Below, in pieces: positions 874 to 7,746 of a stretch of 8,105 nucleotides of DNA. This stretch comes from Ruminococcaceae bacterium UBA1447 (lineage in GTDB: Bacteria; Bacillota; Clostridia; Oscillospirales; Acutalibacteraceae), in NCBI GenBank assembly GCA_002329225.1, contig DCTF01000032.1, positions 335 to 8,439 of the forward strand. The letters run 5' to 3'. The notes beneath the pieces were generated by a model that saw only the letters and a list, made by a program, of their open reading frames with translations, did no database searches and was not told the DNA's origin. The position numbers and the translations under genes were made by a program. Each line of letters begins with the position of its first letter. The first letter of the stretch is position 1.

Positions 874-1941
874 TTAAGCGTCAATTACAACTTCTCTGCC
901 GCTGTCCGAAGAATCATAAATGGCCTGCATGATTTTTGAAGTTTCAATCGCATAGTCAATGTTGGCTTGATTCTTTTTGCCGGTGAGTATGCAATCAACA
1001 AATGAATCAACTTCGGCTTTGTAAAAATCGTTAGGTTCAAAGTCGGGTTCGGTTGTGACCAGGTCCTTGTCTTTAATATGGAAATAAGCAAAATCTCCGC
1101 AGTAGTTTAAGCGAACCCCCGCTTTATCACCCATGAAGTCGATATAGGTTTCGCTGACAAAAATATTCTGTGCCCAAGCGCCGGTGAGGCTGATAACCGG
1201 ACCTTCCGTACGAATTACGGCGGTGACGGAGTCGTCCACGTCATAAATGCCGTCAGTCTTGGCAGTGTCTCTTGCCCACATGTCTTTATATACATAATTC
1301 GGGATATCTTTGCCGAGTTTGCAGAAAGCTTTGCCCGAGGCGGTCAAAGGCTTGGGGTCGCCGCAGCAGTACTGGATAAGATCAATATAGTGGACACCCC
1401 AGTCAATAAGGGAGCCGCCGCCGGAAATAGCTTTTGTGGTGAAGTCGCCGCCAAGCCCCGGTATGCTGCGGAAGGCACGGAAACTGGCATAGACGTGGTA
1501 AACCTCGCCCAAATCGCCGTTGTCAATCATATCTTTAATCATGTTAACCGCTGTGCCGAAACGGTTGCAAACGCCTATATTTAATGTCCTTCCGGTTTCG
1601 TGAGCAACCCTTTGCATTTCCAAGGCTTCTGGAAGAGTGCGTGCAGCAGGTTTTTCACAGAGTACATCTTTACCCGCTTTCATAAAATCTATTGAGATAA
1701 TTGAATGGAAGTCGTTATGAGTGCAAACGGAAACGGCGTCAAGGTCCGGGTCATTTACAATCTCCTTATAATCGTAAACAGCCTTGCCGCAACCGAATCT
1801 TTTCACAAACTCATCGGCTCTTTCTGGAATGATGTCGCAAAAATACTTGATTTCGCAGTTCTCGTTGGACAGATAGTGGGGAGCGTGGGAGCCGCGGGCG
1901 ATATTGCCGCAACCGATAATGGCGATTTTGAGCTTCTTCAT
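874..1941 (-). CDS. Gfo/Idh/MocA family NAD(P)-dependent oxidoreductase (A)
   Basis: Encodes 355 residues, a normal length for this family of cytoplasmic dehydrogenases acting on sugars, inositols and related polyols. The N-terminal Rossmann fold starts KIAIIGCGNIARGSH (residues 5-19, the GxGxxA-type dinucleotide site). The signature EKP follows at 96-98 (CEKPAA). The C-terminal alpha/beta domain carries GGGSLIDWGVHYIDL (174-188), with His184 at the usual catalytic position. The start at 1941 is chosen because GGAGGT lies 7 nt upstream and the dinucleotide motif begins right after it; the frame stays open to 2085 but that extension has no support. The gene is divergent from a paralogue at 2178 and ends at a strong terminator. 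The substrate cannot be deduced. The family call is secure. Confidence 0.93.
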   Translation of the reverse strand: MKKLKIAIIGCGNIARGSHAPHYLSNENCEIKYFCDIIPERADEFVKRFGCGKAVYDYKEIVNDPDLDAVSVCTHNDFHSIISIDFMKAGKDVLCEKPAARTLPEALEMQRVAHETGRTLNIGVCNRFGTAVNMIKDMIDNGDLGEVYHVYASFRAFRSIPGLGGDFTTKAISGGGSLIDWGVHYIDLIQYCCGDPKPLTASGKAFCKLGKDIPNYVYKDMWARDTAKTDGIYDVDDSVTAVIRTEGPVISLTGAWAQNIFVSETYIDFMGDKAGVRLNYCGDFAYFHIKDKDLVTTEPDFEPNDFYKAEVDSFVDCILTGKKNQANIDYAIETSKIMQAIYDSSDSGREVVIDA

Positions 1942-1948
1942 TGGTATT

Positions 1949-1954
1949 ACCTCC
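1949..1954 (-). promoter_or_regulatory. Ribosome binding site fixing the start of oxidoreductase A
   Basis: GGAGGT on the minus strand, 7 nt before the ATG at 1941-1939. It decides for this start over a longer open frame reaching 2085. Confidence 0.85.
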
Positions 1955-1986
1955 GCATATAATAAAAATATTTCAGTAGCCGACTT

Positions 1987-2015
1987 ATGATAGCATTCCA
2001 AACCGTAAAAGTAAA
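1987..2015 (-). promoter_or_regulatory. Sigma-A-like promoter for oxidoreductase A
   Basis: On the minus strand, TTTACT (2015-2010) and TATCAT (1992-1987) are separated by 17 bp. The -10 matches 5 of 6 consensus bases and the -35 matches 4 of 6. Transcription would begin at about 1980, leaving a leader of roughly 40 nt that includes the ribosome binding site. Confidence 0.55.
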
Positions 2016-2084
2016 CGAATTCAGGTGAAAATTTTGTGAAAAACTGTCTTTTTTGAATTTGGTGCAAAAAGATGCGGGAACTCA

Positions 2085-2113
2085 TTGAAAAGCGAACGTT
2101 TATCCGTTACAAT
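2085..2113 (+). promoter_or_regulatory. Sigma-A-like promoter for oxidoreductase B
   Basis: TTGAAA (2085-2090) and TACAAT (2108-2113) are separated by exactly 17 bp, each matching 5 of 6 consensus bases. The expected start point is near 2120, giving a leader of about 58 nt before the ATG at 2178. The spacer contains the small palindrome AACGTT (2095-2100). Confidence 0.7.
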
Positions 2114-2177: not shown

Positions 2178-3344
2178 ATGGCATCATCAACAGGTATTCT
2201 TGACAAGTTTAAGGAAACTCAGGAAGAAGTCAAAGAGGTTAAGTCGGACAGAAAACTGAAAGTCGCTATTATAGGGTGTGGATGGATAGCTGAAGCCCAT
2301 GTCAAAAGCTATATTAAGTGCCCGGATGTTGAAATTGTCGCTGCGGCGGATTTGATTCCCGGCAAAGCGGAAGCGTTTTTTGACGGTTTAGGCTTTGATA
2401 CCGAAAAACTTCGCTTTTATCCCAGCCATAAAGAACTGCTCGACACTGAAGAGCTTGATGCGGTGAGCGTTTGTACTTACAACGCTACTCACGCCGAATG
2501 CACAATTTATGCTCTCGAAAAAGGCGTTAATGTTCTGCTTGAAAAACCCATGTGTGTTACTTTGCAAGAAGCTATTGAGATTTGCCGTGCGGAAAAAAAG
2601 AGCGGCAAAGTGCTTTCGATAGGCTTCCAACCGCGTTTCGATGAAAACATGAAGATGATTAAGAAAATTGTTCAGTCGGGCGAACTCGGTGAAGTCTACT
2701 ATATCCAAACAGGCGGCGGACGCCGCAGGGGCATTCCCACGCCTTTCGGAACCTCCTTTATTGAAAAAGAAACCGCCGGCCTAGGCGCACTCGGCGACAT
2801 CGGCTGCTATTCCTTGGACGTGGTTATGAATGCGGTAGGTTACCCCAAACCCTTGACGGTTACCGGCTACAAATCGGACTTCTTCGGCAAAAGCCCTAAA
2901 TACTCCAACAAACCCGAGTATGTGGATATTTTCGGAGTGGATGACTTCGCTGCCGGCTTTGTAAGGCTTGAAGGCGGAATAATTCTGGACTTCAGAATTG
3001 CTTGGGCTATGCATATGGATACTCCCGGCGACTCCCTGATTTTCGGTAAAGAGGGCGGTTTGAGAATTCCCTCGACGGATTGCTGGAACGGCAGTGTTGG
3101 CGGACCGATGAAAATTTACCATGATGTAGCCGGTGAACAAGTCGAAACGACTATTCCTATTTTGAACAACGGCGGGAAGGATTTGTTTGACATGAAAATC
3201 CGTTCCTTCCTGGATGCTGTCATTACAGGCTCTCCCTCGCCCGTACCCTCTTCCCAAATCATTTACAACCAGGCTATTTTGGACGGTATTGCCCGCTCAG
3301 CTGAACTTGGTAAAGAGATTGAAATAGAAATTCCCGAAATCTAA
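2178..3344 (+). CDS. Gfo/Idh/MocA family oxidoreductase (B)
   Basis: Encodes 388 residues. After a charged 26-residue N-terminal extension (MASSTGILDKFKETQEEVKE...), the Rossmann fold begins LKVAIIGCGWIAEAH (27-41, dinucleotide-binding loop). The family signature LEKPM is at 121-125. The C-terminal domain has GLGALGDIGCYSLD (201-214); in this motif most relatives have His where this protein has Tyr211, as in the glucose-fructose oxidoreductase-like branch. GGAGG (2166-2170) lies 7 nt before the ATG, which supports this start even though the extension precedes the core fold. The protein is a distant paralogue of the divergent oxidoreductase at 874-1941, and both share the order EKP, then G-x-L-x-D-x-G. 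It probably oxidises or reduces a sugar or sugar derivative with NAD(P) in the cytoplasm; the exact substrate is unknown. Confidence 0.93.
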   Translation: MASSTGILDKFKETQEEVKEVKSDRKLKVAIIGCGWIAEAHVKSYIKCPDVEIVAAADLIPGKAEAFFDGLGFDTEKLRFYPSHKELLDTEELDAVSVCTYNATHAECTIYALEKGVNVLLEKPMCVTLQEAIEICRAEKKSGKVLSIGFQPRFDENMKMIKKIVQSGELGEVYYIQTGGGRRRGIPTPFGTSFIEKETAGLGALGDIGCYSLDVVMNAVGYPKPLTVTGYKSDFFGKSPKYSNKPEYVDIFGVDDFAAGFVRLEGGIILDFRIAWAMHMDTPGDSLIFGKEGGLRIPSTDCWNGSVGGPMKIYHDVAGEQVETTIPILNNGGKDLFDMKIRSFLDAVITGSPSPVPSSQIIYNQAILDGIARSAELGKEIEIEIPEI

Positions 3345-3368
3345 TCGAAAAATAAAAGAACAGAAAAA

Positions 3369-3398
3369 CGCCCGCTTCTCCAAATTGAGAGGCGGGCG
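3369..3398. terminator. Bidirectional terminator between oxidoreductase B and tex
   Basis: A 12-bp stem with one G-T wobble pairs 3369-3380 with 3387-3398 around a 6-nt loop. On the minus strand it is followed by TTTTT, a strong intrinsic terminator 24 bp after the stop codon that closes the dnaD-dnaC-tex operon. On the plus strand it lies 24 bp after oxidoreductase B and is followed by the weaker TATTTTAG. Confidence 0.85.
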
Positions 3399-3767
3399 CC
3401 GTATTTTAGTTGCTAAGCCGACTTATACATCTTTATCGTTTTTTTGTGCCTGCGGCGGTTCTGCAGGTTTCTTCATTGTTAAACCTATTCTTCCCCGGTC
3501 AACCTCTACATTGACAACCCAGACCGTCACAACTTCCCCCACTTTAAGGACTTCCGAAGGGTGTTTTATATAGCGGTTTGTGATTTGTGATATATGTACA
3601 AGTCCGTCCTGATGTACCCCTATATCCACAAAGGCGCCGAAATCTATTACATTCCTGACTGTACCTTTTAGTTCCATTCCCGGGACTAAATCCTTAATAT
3701 CCATTACATCCGTGCGAAGCAAAGGGGGAGGGAGTTCGTCACGAGGATCTCTGCCTGGTTTAAGAAG

Positions 3768-3770
3768 TTA
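3768..3770 (-). other. In-frame nonsense codon in tex (codon 616)
   Basis: TAA interrupts the run [27 protein letters not shown] without a change of frame. In Tex relatives this linker has an acidic residue at this point followed by a conserved KPGRDPR. A single GAA to TAA change explains it. Confidence 0.8.
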
Positions 3771-4534
3771 TTTTATAATATCCCGTAAAGTCGGCAAGCC
3801 TACTCCGGCTTTTTCAGCCAACACTTCTTCTCCGGCAGCCTTAACCCGGTCGGACAACTCATCGAGTTTGCCTGCTGCAACATCATTTAAACTGTAACCG
3901 CATATACTCAAAGCTTTTTCAGCCGCCTCGTAACTTTCAGGGTGAACTCCCGTGTTGTCCAACACATTTTTGCTTTCGGCAACACGCAAAAAACCTGCAC
4001 ATTGTAAAAAAGCTTTTTCACCCAGTTTAGGTACTTTTTTCAGTTCTTTGCGCGACTTGAACAATCCGTTTTCTTCTCTGTAGGTCACAATGTTTTTAGC
4101 CACGGCGGCATTTATCCCGGATACTCGGGCAAGCAGGGGGGCGGAAGCGGTGTTAAGATCCGCACCCACCGTGGTTACGCAGTATTCCACAACGGCATCA
4201 AGTGCGTTGCCGAGCTCTTTTTGCGGCATATCGTGTTGATATTGGCCAACTCCTATGGCCTTAGGGTCAATTTTAACCAACTCTGCCAAAGGGTCCTGCA
4301 AGCGCCTTGCGATTGAAACGGCGCTTCTTATAGATACATCAAACTGAGGAAATTCTTCCGCCGCAAGTTTGGAGGCTGAATAAACGGAGGCCCCCGCCTC
4401 GTTGACTATCATATACGCAGTATCCGTTTTTGCTTCTTTAAGAACTTCAGCGGTAAAAATTTCCGTTTCTTTCGAGGCGGTGCCGTTGCCGATGGCTATA
4501 GCTTTAACACCGAACTTATCAATCCAAGCCTTTA

Positions 4535-4551
4535 CTTTCTGCTTTCTGCTT
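4535..4551. repeat. 7-bp tandem duplication that frameshifts tex
   Basis: On the plus strand CTTTCTG (4535-4541) is followed by CTTTCTG (4542-4548) and CTT (4549-4551). On the coding strand this reads AGCAGAA twice. Seven bases shift the frame by one. With one copy removed the coding strand reads [21 protein letters not shown], a smooth Tex sequence, whereas the present frame gives KAESKGLD and a stop at 4519. A further CTTTCTGCTT lies nearby at 4560-4569. Confidence 0.85.
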
Positions 4552-5634
4552 GGCGTCTTCTTTCTGCTTGTCGGAATGGGTCAAGTAGAGAACACCGGTA
4601 TCAAGCACCATGCCTGTTTGGTCAACCACCGCCGCTTTGCAACCTGTACGGTAGCCGGGGTCCAAACCAAGTACGGTCAGGCCTTTTATCGGAGGCTGCA
4701 AAAGCAGTTCTCTAAGATTGTCGGCAAAAACCTTAATGGCGGATGTCGCCGCATTTTCGGTAAGTGTACTTCTGACTTCTCTTTCAAGGGAGGGGAAGAT
4801 AAGTCTGTCATAAGAATCTCTTCCCGCTTCACGCACCGTTTCAGTGCAGGGAGAGTGATTCGGTGCAAGAATTTGCCCGTTTATTATTCCGGAAGCCTTG
4901 ACAGCGTCAACTAAAATTTTGACTTTCAAAAATTCTTCCCGTTCTCCTCTGTTGATCGCCAAAATCCGGTGACCGGCAATTTTGTTTACGGGTTCGGTAA
5001 AGTCATAATACATGGTGTAAACACTTTGCTCGTCTTCTTTGCTTGCTTTGCTTTCCACGATACCTTCAGCAGTAAAGAGTGTGCGCAACCGGCGGCGAAT
5101 GTCGGCACTGTCCGAAATATCCTCGGCAATAATGTCAAGCGCTCCTTGCAAGGCATCCTGAGGGGATTCAACACCTTTTTCAGCGTCCACATAGTCCGCC
5201 GCCATTTCAATAGGTGTTAAAGAGTTTGGTTCCTGAGCAAAAATTGCGGCGGCAAGGGATTCAAGCCCCTTTTCCCTCGCAACGGATGCTCGGGTTTTTC
5301 TCTTGGGTTTGAAAGGACGGTAGATATCCTCAACTTCCGCAAGAGTCTGCGCATCATTTATGGCCTTTGCTATCTCCGGGGTCATCTTATCCTGACTCTC
5401 AATGCTTGAAAAAACTTCTTCTTTTCGTTTTTCCAGATTGCGCAGATACTCAAGACTTTCAGAAAGCTCCCTAATAACCTGGTCATCAAGGGCGCCGTGA
5501 GCCTCTTTGCGGTATCGGGCTATAAACGGAATTGTGTTGCCTTCATCAATTAGTTTTACGGTATTTTCAACCTGCCAATCCTGCAGGTGAAGTTTTGTGC
5601 CGAGCGACTTGATAATATCCATTTTTATAAAAAA

Positions 5635-5663: not shown

Positions 5664-6653
5664 TCAACTTCTATTTCTTTTAATCTGACGTATATCCTTT
5701 CCCATAAAGGGGAGGGAAACATAGTTGCCGGTTATCCGGGAGGTAATGCGTTGGGAATACTTTTCTTCCAGCTCTTCGGGGGAGAGGTTTGTGTTTACTA
5801 TTGTTGGAACCCCTCGGGAAAGGCGTGTGTTAATAATGTTGTAAATTGCGGAAACGGTAAACTGGGTGGTAAACTCCGCCCCCAAGTCATCTAAAATAAG
5901 CAGGTCGCATTCCAACATGCTTTGCTCCGTGCCCTCGTTTTCATCCCCTCGGCGTGAAAATCTTTCCTTTTCAAGCTTGGTGAGCAGGTTTTGCGCCGAA
6001 CCGTAAATAACGCCGAAACCTTTATTTACCACCGTGCCGGCAATAGCAAGTGAAAGATGCGTTTTTCCCAGACCGGTTTTGCCGTGCAAAAACAAACTGG
6101 GTGAAGAAAGACCGAAGTCCTCGGCATAGGCCTTGCAGTACTCGAAGATTTCTTTCATCCGATTATACGGAACCAAGCCGGTTTCGGCATCTTGAGTTTT
6201 AGGATAATAATCAAGTTTAAAATCTTCAAAATCCGAAGATGCGGCAGGGCTCAGCTCGCTGAGTTGTGCGTAAGCTATTGAACGCAGCAAAACGGTTCTG
6301 CAATCACAAAAATATCCGTTCACAACCCCGTTGTCTTCACAATGCGGGCAGACAAATACGGCTTCAAGATAGTTTTTCGGGTATCCGGCATTTGTTAAAA
6401 GCCGGCCTCTTTCATCTTGTGCGGCAAGGTTTTGTTTTGCCAGATCCTCAATATACTTACCGGCATCCGCACCCATTCCGATAGCTTTAACGGTGGCAAG
6501 CCCCGTATCCGCCATCTCTTTTTCCAATTCCAATAGTCTTGGAATTTTTGCTGTTGCTTCATCGTGGCGTTTTTTCTGTTCGGCAAAAGCGCGGGTACGC
6601 CTTCTTTGCAGTTCTTCTGCCGCCAACTCATATATTTTAGGGCTGTAACTCAT
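5664..6653 (-). CDS. dnaC: DnaC/DnaI-type helicase loader ATPase
   Basis: Encodes 329 residues with the layout of Bacillota helicase loaders. A basic, helical N-terminal region (1-90) is followed by a zinc-binding cluster with Cys102, Cys105, Cys116 and Cys118 (CPHCEDNG, CDC). The AAA+ domain has Walker A GKTGLGKT (191-198), Walker B LLILDD (251-256), a sensor-1-like NTNL (287-290) and arginines at the end (QRITSRI, 301-307). By family knowledge it loads the replicative helicase at origins or restarted forks together with DnaD. GAGGA lies 7 nt before the ATG. The start overlaps the dnaD stop by ATGA, implying translational coupling. The gene could also be named dnaI; IstB transposition ATPases share the fold, but no transposase is present and the zinc cluster and DnaD partner point to the replication loader. 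Confidence 0.92.
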   Translation of the reverse strand: MSYSPKIYELAAEELQRRRTRAFAEQKKRHDEATAKIPRLLELEKEMADTGLATVKAIGMGADAGKYIEDLAKQNLAAQDERGRLLTNAGYPKNYLEAVFVCPHCEDNGVVNGYFCDCRTVLLRSIAYAQLSELSPAASSDFEDFKLDYYPKTQDAETGLVPYNRMKEIFEYCKAYAEDFGLSSPSLFLHGKTGLGKTHLSLAIAGTVVNKGFGVIYGSAQNLLTKLEKERFSRRGDENEGTEQSMLECDLLILDDLGAEFTTQFTVSAIYNIINTRLSRGVPTIVNTNLSPEELEEKYSQRITSRITGNYVSLPFMGKDIRQIKRNRS

Positions 6654-7687
6654 TTCTTATTCCTCTTTTCGTATAAAATCGGCTCATGAACCGATCTGTT
6701 GTTAAACTCGTCAAGGTCATAGGAGGCGGATTTGCCGGAACTTTGATTTTTCTCTTGCTGTTTTTTTCGGCTTCTGTCTTCTTTTTCCGCATCTTCGGGC
6801 GTCTTGATTCCTTTGGAATGCCAATTTTTAAGTACCTTATCCATGTAGGGGAAGCTGAGGCGGTGACAGTTGTTCGCCATTTGCTCATAAGCAAGAATAA
6901 TCATTTCCACATCGAACTTGAGCCGATTAACCCAATCAACAATGTATTCGGATTGCTTTGCGGTGGGGCGGGGGGTTGAAATACCGGTTCCGCGTGCAAT
7001 TTCCTGCCATAAGCGGGTAATGTTGTCCAAATGGTTTATTTCTTCTTCCGCCTTTTCAATGGTATCAATTTCTTTTTCAAACCAGTTTTGCCCCATTTTA
7101 CCTATATAAGAAAAAGAAATTTTGCCCACGGAAGCGGCATAAGAAAGTATCATCAGGATTACCTCAATGGGTAACCCGTATTGATCGTGCATCATCAACA
7201 ATGTACATTGGCCGTCATAACCGATGGTTCGGCCAAGCTTTACCTGCGCTTCGTTAAAAAGGTATGCTATGTCCGGCGACTCTTTCGCCCGGGCAAGAAT
7301 CTGGGAATGGCTGGGCTTGATTACCGGAAGCTCGGGAGGGGAGGGGCGCCGTGATGGTTCTTTCTCCTTTTCGATAATGCTCGGTTTTTCCTCTTCTTGA
7401 TTTTGCTGATTTTTGTTCTCGGTTATTTTGGACTGCTCTGTCTTTTTGTCATCATTAATTAAAATACCCGTTTCAACCCAATATTGAAGGGCGTCTACCG
7501 CATCTGCGGTTTTTTGCCCGATTGCTTTTGCCATTTCCTCAATGTCAAGCGGTTCGTTGGCATGGCGAAGCACCCAAAGCAGGGCTTTGAGTTGCGCGGC
7601 ACCGGCTAAACGGATGTGCTTATCAACAATTTGTGAAGGAACGGGGAAAATAACACCCCAAGCAGAGGGGTTAATACCATAACTCAT
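6650..7687 (-). CDS. dnaD: DnaD domain replication initiation protein
   Basis: Encodes 345 residues from the start MSYGINPSAW. The N-terminal part (about 1-78) resembles the winged-helix region of DnaD/DnaB-type primosome proteins. A charged, low-complexity linker rich in Glu, Lys, Gln and Pro follows (about 79-122). Two DnaD-type helical domains come next, at about 138-215 and 228-296; the second ends with the family hallmark FPYMDKVLKNWHSKGIKT (279-296). The tail is charged and ends with YDLDEFNNRS, seen in related clostridial proteins. It should act in primosome assembly with the helicase loader encoded by the next gene, which overlaps its stop by four bases. The start at 7687 is chosen because GGGAG lies 7 nt upstream; a GTG at 7726 in the same frame is less likely because it would precede the promoter's expected start point. 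Confidence 0.88.
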   Translation of the reverse strand: MSYGINPSAWGVIFPVPSQIVDKHIRLAGAAQLKALLWVLRHANEPLDIEEMAKAIGQKTADAVDALQYWVETGILINDDKKTEQSKITENKNQQNQEEEKPSIIEKEKEPSRRPSPPELPVIKPSHSQILARAKESPDIAYLFNEAQVKLGRTIGYDGQCTLLMMHDQYGLPIEVILMILSYAASVGKISFSYIGKMGQNWFEKEIDTIEKAEEEINHLDNITRLWQEIARGTGISTPRPTAKQSEYIVDWVNRLKFDVEMIILAYEQMANNCHRLSFPYMDKVLKNWHSKGIKTPEDAEKEDRSRKKQQEKNQSSGKSASYDLDEFNNRSVHEPILYEKRNKK

Positions 7688-7694
7688 ATCTCTA

Positions 7695-7699
7695 CTCCC
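7695..7699 (-). promoter_or_regulatory. Ribosome binding site fixing the start of dnaD
   Basis: GGGAG on the minus strand, 7 nt upstream of the ATG at 7687. It supports this start over the upstream GTG at 7726 and ATG at 7717. Confidence 0.7.
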
Positions 7700-7717
7700 G
7701 ATAATTTTATCGACCAT

Positions 7718-7746
7718 ATTATACACAAGAAGGGGATAAAAATAAA
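7718..7746 (-). promoter_or_regulatory. Candidate promoter of the dnaD-dnaC-tex operon
   Basis: On the minus strand a perfect TATAAT (7723-7718) lies 31 bp before the dnaD start codon, with a weak -35 TTTATT (7746-7741) at 17-bp spacing. The expected start point is near 7711, giving a leader of about 25 nt that holds the ribosome binding site. Confidence 0.55.

Follow-up and report, generated by a model that had tools for sequence, protein, structure and literature searches.

The stretch of DNA analysed here, hereafter the window (8,105 nucleotides, starting at base 335 of a contig of 8,439 bp and running to its last base), carries one tex gene on the minus strand between positions 3423 and 5622, spread over three reading frames, as evident from translation of the open reading frames and from Pfam. 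The gene, its two lesions and the adjoining features are located as follows (window coordinates):

6650..7726, minus strand: DnaB_2 gene (replication initiation and membrane attachment), intact, in the tex unit (open reading frames, Pfam)
5664..6653, minus strand: DnaC-like ATPase gene (IstB/DnaA-type), intact, just upstream in the tex unit (open reading frames, Pfam)
4519..5622, minus strand: tex piece 1, 367 amino acids from ATG, ending in a short shifted tail (open reading frames, Pfam, alignments)
4535..4548, no strand assigned: lesion 1, the 7-bp unit CTTTCTG (plus strand) twice in exact tandem, by which the frame is shifted (sequence; L112:4869)
3771..4538, minus strand: tex piece 2, with tex homology from about 4538 (open reading frames, Pfam, alignments)
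3768..3770, minus strand: lesion 2, an in-frame TAA between pieces 2 and 3, where the public protein P0138 and each of the 119 other Tex proteins listed have a sense codon (sequence, alignments)
3423..3767, minus strand: tex piece 3, 114 amino acids, S1 RNA-binding domain (open reading frames, Pfam, alignments)
3350..3412, minus strand: hairpin resembling a terminator, with a run of T, downstream of tex (−23 kcal/mol, z −4.35)

Pfam places Tex_N, Tex_central_region and positions 2-46 of the 126 of Tex_YqgF in piece 1, Tex_YqgF 47-126, HHH_3 and HHH_9 in piece 2, and S1 in piece 3. Piece 2 is part of a stop-to-stop frame (4580-3771), and its earliest possible start codon lies at 4412. Taken together, the three pieces display the domain order of the Tex family (Tex_N, YqgF-like, helix-hairpin-helix, S1). 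The original prediction that the three consecutive frames belong to one Tex protein with all its domains present is thus borne out by Pfam, and likewise by alignments to the Tex of the congener G002 and to the public protein P0138. The predicted length of 731 codons after mending also agrees with P0138, which has 730 residues plus the stop, as judged from the alignment. In place of the continuous frame of about 720-730 codons typical of the family, the window has three frames and two breaks; as the frame is broken twice, a complete protein is not predicted.

The DnaC-like and DnaB_2 genes just upstream on the same strand, together with the hairpin and Ts that follow tex, support the earlier proposal that tex closes a replication operon. 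Three congeners carry a gene for a PIG-L deacetylase between tex and Gfo/Idh (L113:4637-5467, L114:2723-3571, L115:4328-5185), whereas in the window tex and the Gfo/Idh gene are 78 bp apart (3345-3422) and PIG-L is missing at the locus. A PIG-L search of the host genome, made on a genome 65.9% complete and with no positive control, gave no match. In G017, which belongs to another genus, tex is followed by a YmdB-like gene. The presence of PIG-L in the congeners, its absence from the window locus and the YmdB-like gene of G017 show that the end of the unit varies. Divergent Gfo/Idh/MocA oxidoreductase genes (874-2085, minus strand, and 2178-3344, plus strand) adjoin the replication unit in the window; G003 shares this arrangement, as does G002, which has an extra copy.

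A search of a public protein set with the congener Tex as query, in which 7,995 candidates were scored and the best 120 listed, yielded P0138, an intact Tex of 730 amino acids with 8 member sequences on 2 contigs, the longest of 69,030 bp. Pieces 1, 2 and 3 match its residues 1-363, 360-615 and 617-730, with 357/363, 254/256 and 113/114 identities, respectively (98-99%). Three of the six differences in piece 1 lie within the shifted tail; when the tail and the stop are set aside, P0138 and the pieces differ at six residues in total, including one directly at the duplication. Among 240 proteins compared, the runner-up for any piece is 88% identical. Such high identity indicates that P0138 very likely comes from the same species as the window, as far as can be judged from sequence. 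As P0138 is intact, the tex lesions have not become fixed in the species that the two sequences likely share. With its longest contig of 69 kb, the P0138 contig is also different from the 8.4-kb contig of the window. A public protein, P0241, is 100% identical to the DnaC-like protein and occurs on 3 contigs, the longest of 7,237 bp. In view of this length as compared to the 69,030 bp of P0138, the strain with the intact tex and the strain with the identical DnaC-like protein may be different strains.

Comparison of the locus in close relatives revealed an uninterrupted tex in 3/3 congeners. The Tex of G002 is intact, with 724 residues, and the pieces match its residues 1-359, 361-615 and 617-717; aside from the lesions, no part of this protein is absent from the window pieces. 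A second intact tex was also sought in the host genome, and tex was found at one place only, a weak absence at 65.9% completeness. A search with piece 1 (lengths of about 202-642) gave a best identity of 75% among the 120 matches listed. As none of the listed matches exceeds 75%, a second assembly with the same lesions or truncation was not seen among them. Several database proteins stop near residue 360-372, and two of these (P0001, P0010) look frame-shifted there by eye. Among the 120 listed, bins of 20 residues hold 12 proteins at 360-379 and 13 at 380-399, and 1 to 11 elsewhere. A truncation hot spot near residue 360-372 was considered and rejected, as this mild pile-up may reflect ranking by a 367-residue query. 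The nearest named relative in a contig search is JAAYFA010000313.1 of Clostridiales bacterium AS07pgkLD_232, and Acutalibacteraceae and Oscillospiraceae are among the names borne by similar proteins, so that the host probably belongs to one of these families.

That tex bears two separate lesions, and that the downstream PIG-L is lost relative to the three congeners, would fit an old, fixed pseudogene that has long been decaying in the species, but the remainder of tex speaks against such a history. Over the three pieces, changes confined to the window number 50 and those confined to G002 46 with G003 as outgroup, and 52 and 40 with G017. Piece 1 alone leans to the window (35 vs 19, outgroup G003), and the intact DnaB_2 gene leans likewise (46 vs 28). 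A set of 119 listed Tex proteins, picked for their similarity to G002, served to define 403 columns conserved in 97% or more of them; the window departs in 16 of these columns and the intact P0138 in 15, and two of the 119 proteins depart as much (21 and 15 columns). Decay of tex beyond the two lesions is not measurable. The gene therefore shows what is expected of a recent pseudogene, namely disabling lesions while close relatives keep tex, and no further decay since. The lack of excess change suggests that the lesions are recent or else not real, and it fits equally a recent event or no event at all. The options named at the outset (recent loss, strain polymorphism or assembly artefact) hence prove to be the right ones, and long-standing decay is very improbable, given the intact P0138 at 98-99% identity and the absence of extra change.

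The retention of all domains, and the high similarity of each piece to intact Tex, would also be consistent with a split or recoded gene, in which a frameshift at the repeat and readthrough of the TAA restore the protein, or the pieces work as separate proteins. The relatives argue otherwise. When 60 genomes including the host were searched with piece 2, the 59 related genomes gave 39 strong matches, all free of internal stops, 6 weak matches (to the helix-hairpin-helix part) and 14 cases without a match. Furthermore, the shift site has no notable structure (z −0.54), the first break splits the YqgF-like domain, and 4412 is the first place at which piece 2 could start. A functional split or recoded tex is thus scarcely credible, and the broken gene is a matter of ordinary gene decay or of artefact.

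The quality of the host assembly bears directly on the second of these. The assembly (uncultured Clostridia bacterium, metagenome) comprises 1.61 Mb in 177 contigs and is 65.9% complete. Its 496 kb of readable sequence (61 stretches) contains 203 runs of N, 167 of them of exactly two N, or one run about every 2.4 kb (L112:233-334; stretches L124-L143, L164-L183, L224-L243). The congener G003 has 0 such runs in 949 kb, two wholly masked contigs (L195, L203) being left out. Among orthologous gene pairs, 19/129 host genes sampled change frame at an N run, so annotated pseudogenes of the host assembly deserve distrust. The low completeness and the 167 two-N joins make a consensus error credible, and false pseudogenes are reported in PMC11017572 to arise from assembler, platform and coverage, low coverage and assembler choice among them. 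If tex were in fact intact, both the 7-bp duplication and the stop would be errors of a few-read or mixed-strain consensus. Both the existence of the near-identical intact P0138 and the failure to see relaxed constraint in tex agree with this. On the other side, N is absent from the whole window, so neither lesion coincides with a visible join (a run of N) of the assembly, and two independent errors within one gene would be needed.

Breaks away from N were compared between the two genomes, leaving out overlapping places, pairs with less than 45% identity or an alignment shorter than 100 residues, and stops lying 8 residues or less from the alignment end. Interior breaks free of N, judged by eye, occur in 3/128 other host genes as compared to 1/130 in G003, which is not a significant excess (p 0.37); the reverse comparison that gave the latter value used own frames as tested against G003, and overlapping places were not collapsed there. 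The breaks in the three other host genes comprise one single-base homopolymer loss and two stops. Eleven host genes were flagged, of which four have real interior breaks by eye (tex, L233, L130:2931-3958 and L178:3472-4134). L224 adjoins an N join and is also in the N list; in four others (L178:6148-7212, L239, L128:10192 and L128:6732) the stop falls early in the stop-to-stop frame, ahead of the probable start codon; L128:65 is a stop near the C terminus and L243 an uncertain short frame. In the G003 control 5/130 were flagged, with one real shift (L193, near 4431-4503), two stops that precede a likely start codon (L114, L216) and two likely antisense frames (L162, L221). The G003 gene at L193 is substrate-binding-protein-like and is split by the frame shift.

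At the host rate, a single 2.2-kb gene would carry two N-free lesions with a probability of about 0.001, or 0.01 at the upper bound, values that overstate the case because tex was picked for being broken. Exact 7-bp tandem pairs are likewise not enriched, with 21 in 346 kb of the host (the first 41 of the 61 stretches) and 94 in 949 kb of G003, that is 6.1 vs 9.9 per 100 kb. The CTTTCTG pair is distinguished by its breaking of a conserved frame, 7-bp pairs themselves being common. Tandem units of 5, 6, 7 and 13-40 bp are rarer in the host than in G003, and those of 8-12 bp slightly commoner (5.8 vs 4.4 per 100 kb). Unmerged contig overlap as the source of the duplication is accordingly not favoured, as short tandem pairs are not enriched save for the 8-12 bp class. 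On balance these comparisons speak for real mutations, short of proof. An assembly or base-call artefact is the second most likely reading, a serious possibility at less than an even chance.

Tex is a widespread RNA-binding transcription factor and is often regarded as a core gene. A decaying tex had been called unusual on the ground that Tex is widely conserved; this does not hold in the host's family, where 105/248 other genomes have no tex match at E 1e-20, so that, against the core-gene view, about two in five of those sampled show no match to tex. With the host included, 144/249 family genomes match the congener Tex at E 1e-20 or better. The proportion is 143/246 when only genomes with a completeness of 90% or more and a contamination of 5% or less are considered, and 68/107 when counted by genus. 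G078, a single contig 99% complete, gave no tex match. Among the listed family matches, 16 (several of them partial) have one stop each, and all have open frames of at least 717 amino acids, which suggests that the stops probably lie past the end of tex. The 105 genomes, scored by a single search, suggest that tex has probably been lost many times in the family, and that the family can probably do without it.

The N-free position of both lesions, the rarity of N-free breaks, the intact P0138, the many family genomes without a tex match, the lack of excess change and the loss of PIG-L together favour a recent strain-level null allele of tex, a gene probably dispensable to the family; we assign this reading a probability of roughly 0.55. 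Against it weigh the rough assembly, the uninterrupted tex of all three congeners and the failure to see a second assembly with the same lesions among the 120 listed piece-1 matches. The most likely account of the broken tex is thus the recent and ordinary loss of a dispensable gene. The duplication may have arisen through slipped-strand mispairing at a short repeat rich in A and G. Translation would halt inside the YqgF-like domain, and no complete Tex with its S1 RNA-binding domain would be made. The second lesion would have been tolerated because tex was already dead after the first. A wider picture, in which intact and newly broken tex alleles coexist in one species, the family has undergone many tex losses, and the operon tail (tex, PIG-L) is being shed, is offered tentatively, at slightly less than an even chance.

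If the null allele is real, a species with intact and broken alleles offers a natural experiment on why tex can be lost, and the cost of its loss would be measurable by comparing near-identical natural strains. If it is an artefact, the lesson is one of caution, since about one sampled gene in seven shifts frame at an N join in this assembly.

The domain order of the window tex is shared with the bacterial Tex PA5201 of Pseudomonas aeruginosa (PDB 2OCE, 3BZC), which aligns to P0138 over residues 13-722 with an E value of about 6e-181; unlike PA5201 Tex, the window frame is broken twice. With the spurious assembly pseudogenes described in PMC11017572, the window tex shares broken frames, a doubtful assembly and a near-identical intact copy, but its breaks lie off visible N joins and one of them is an exact 7-bp duplication. 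With the ordinary recent bacterial pseudogene the window tex, known from a poor assembly, has in common a short tandem duplication and an early stop codon within a gene otherwise unchanged, together with an intact, near-identical allele elsewhere.
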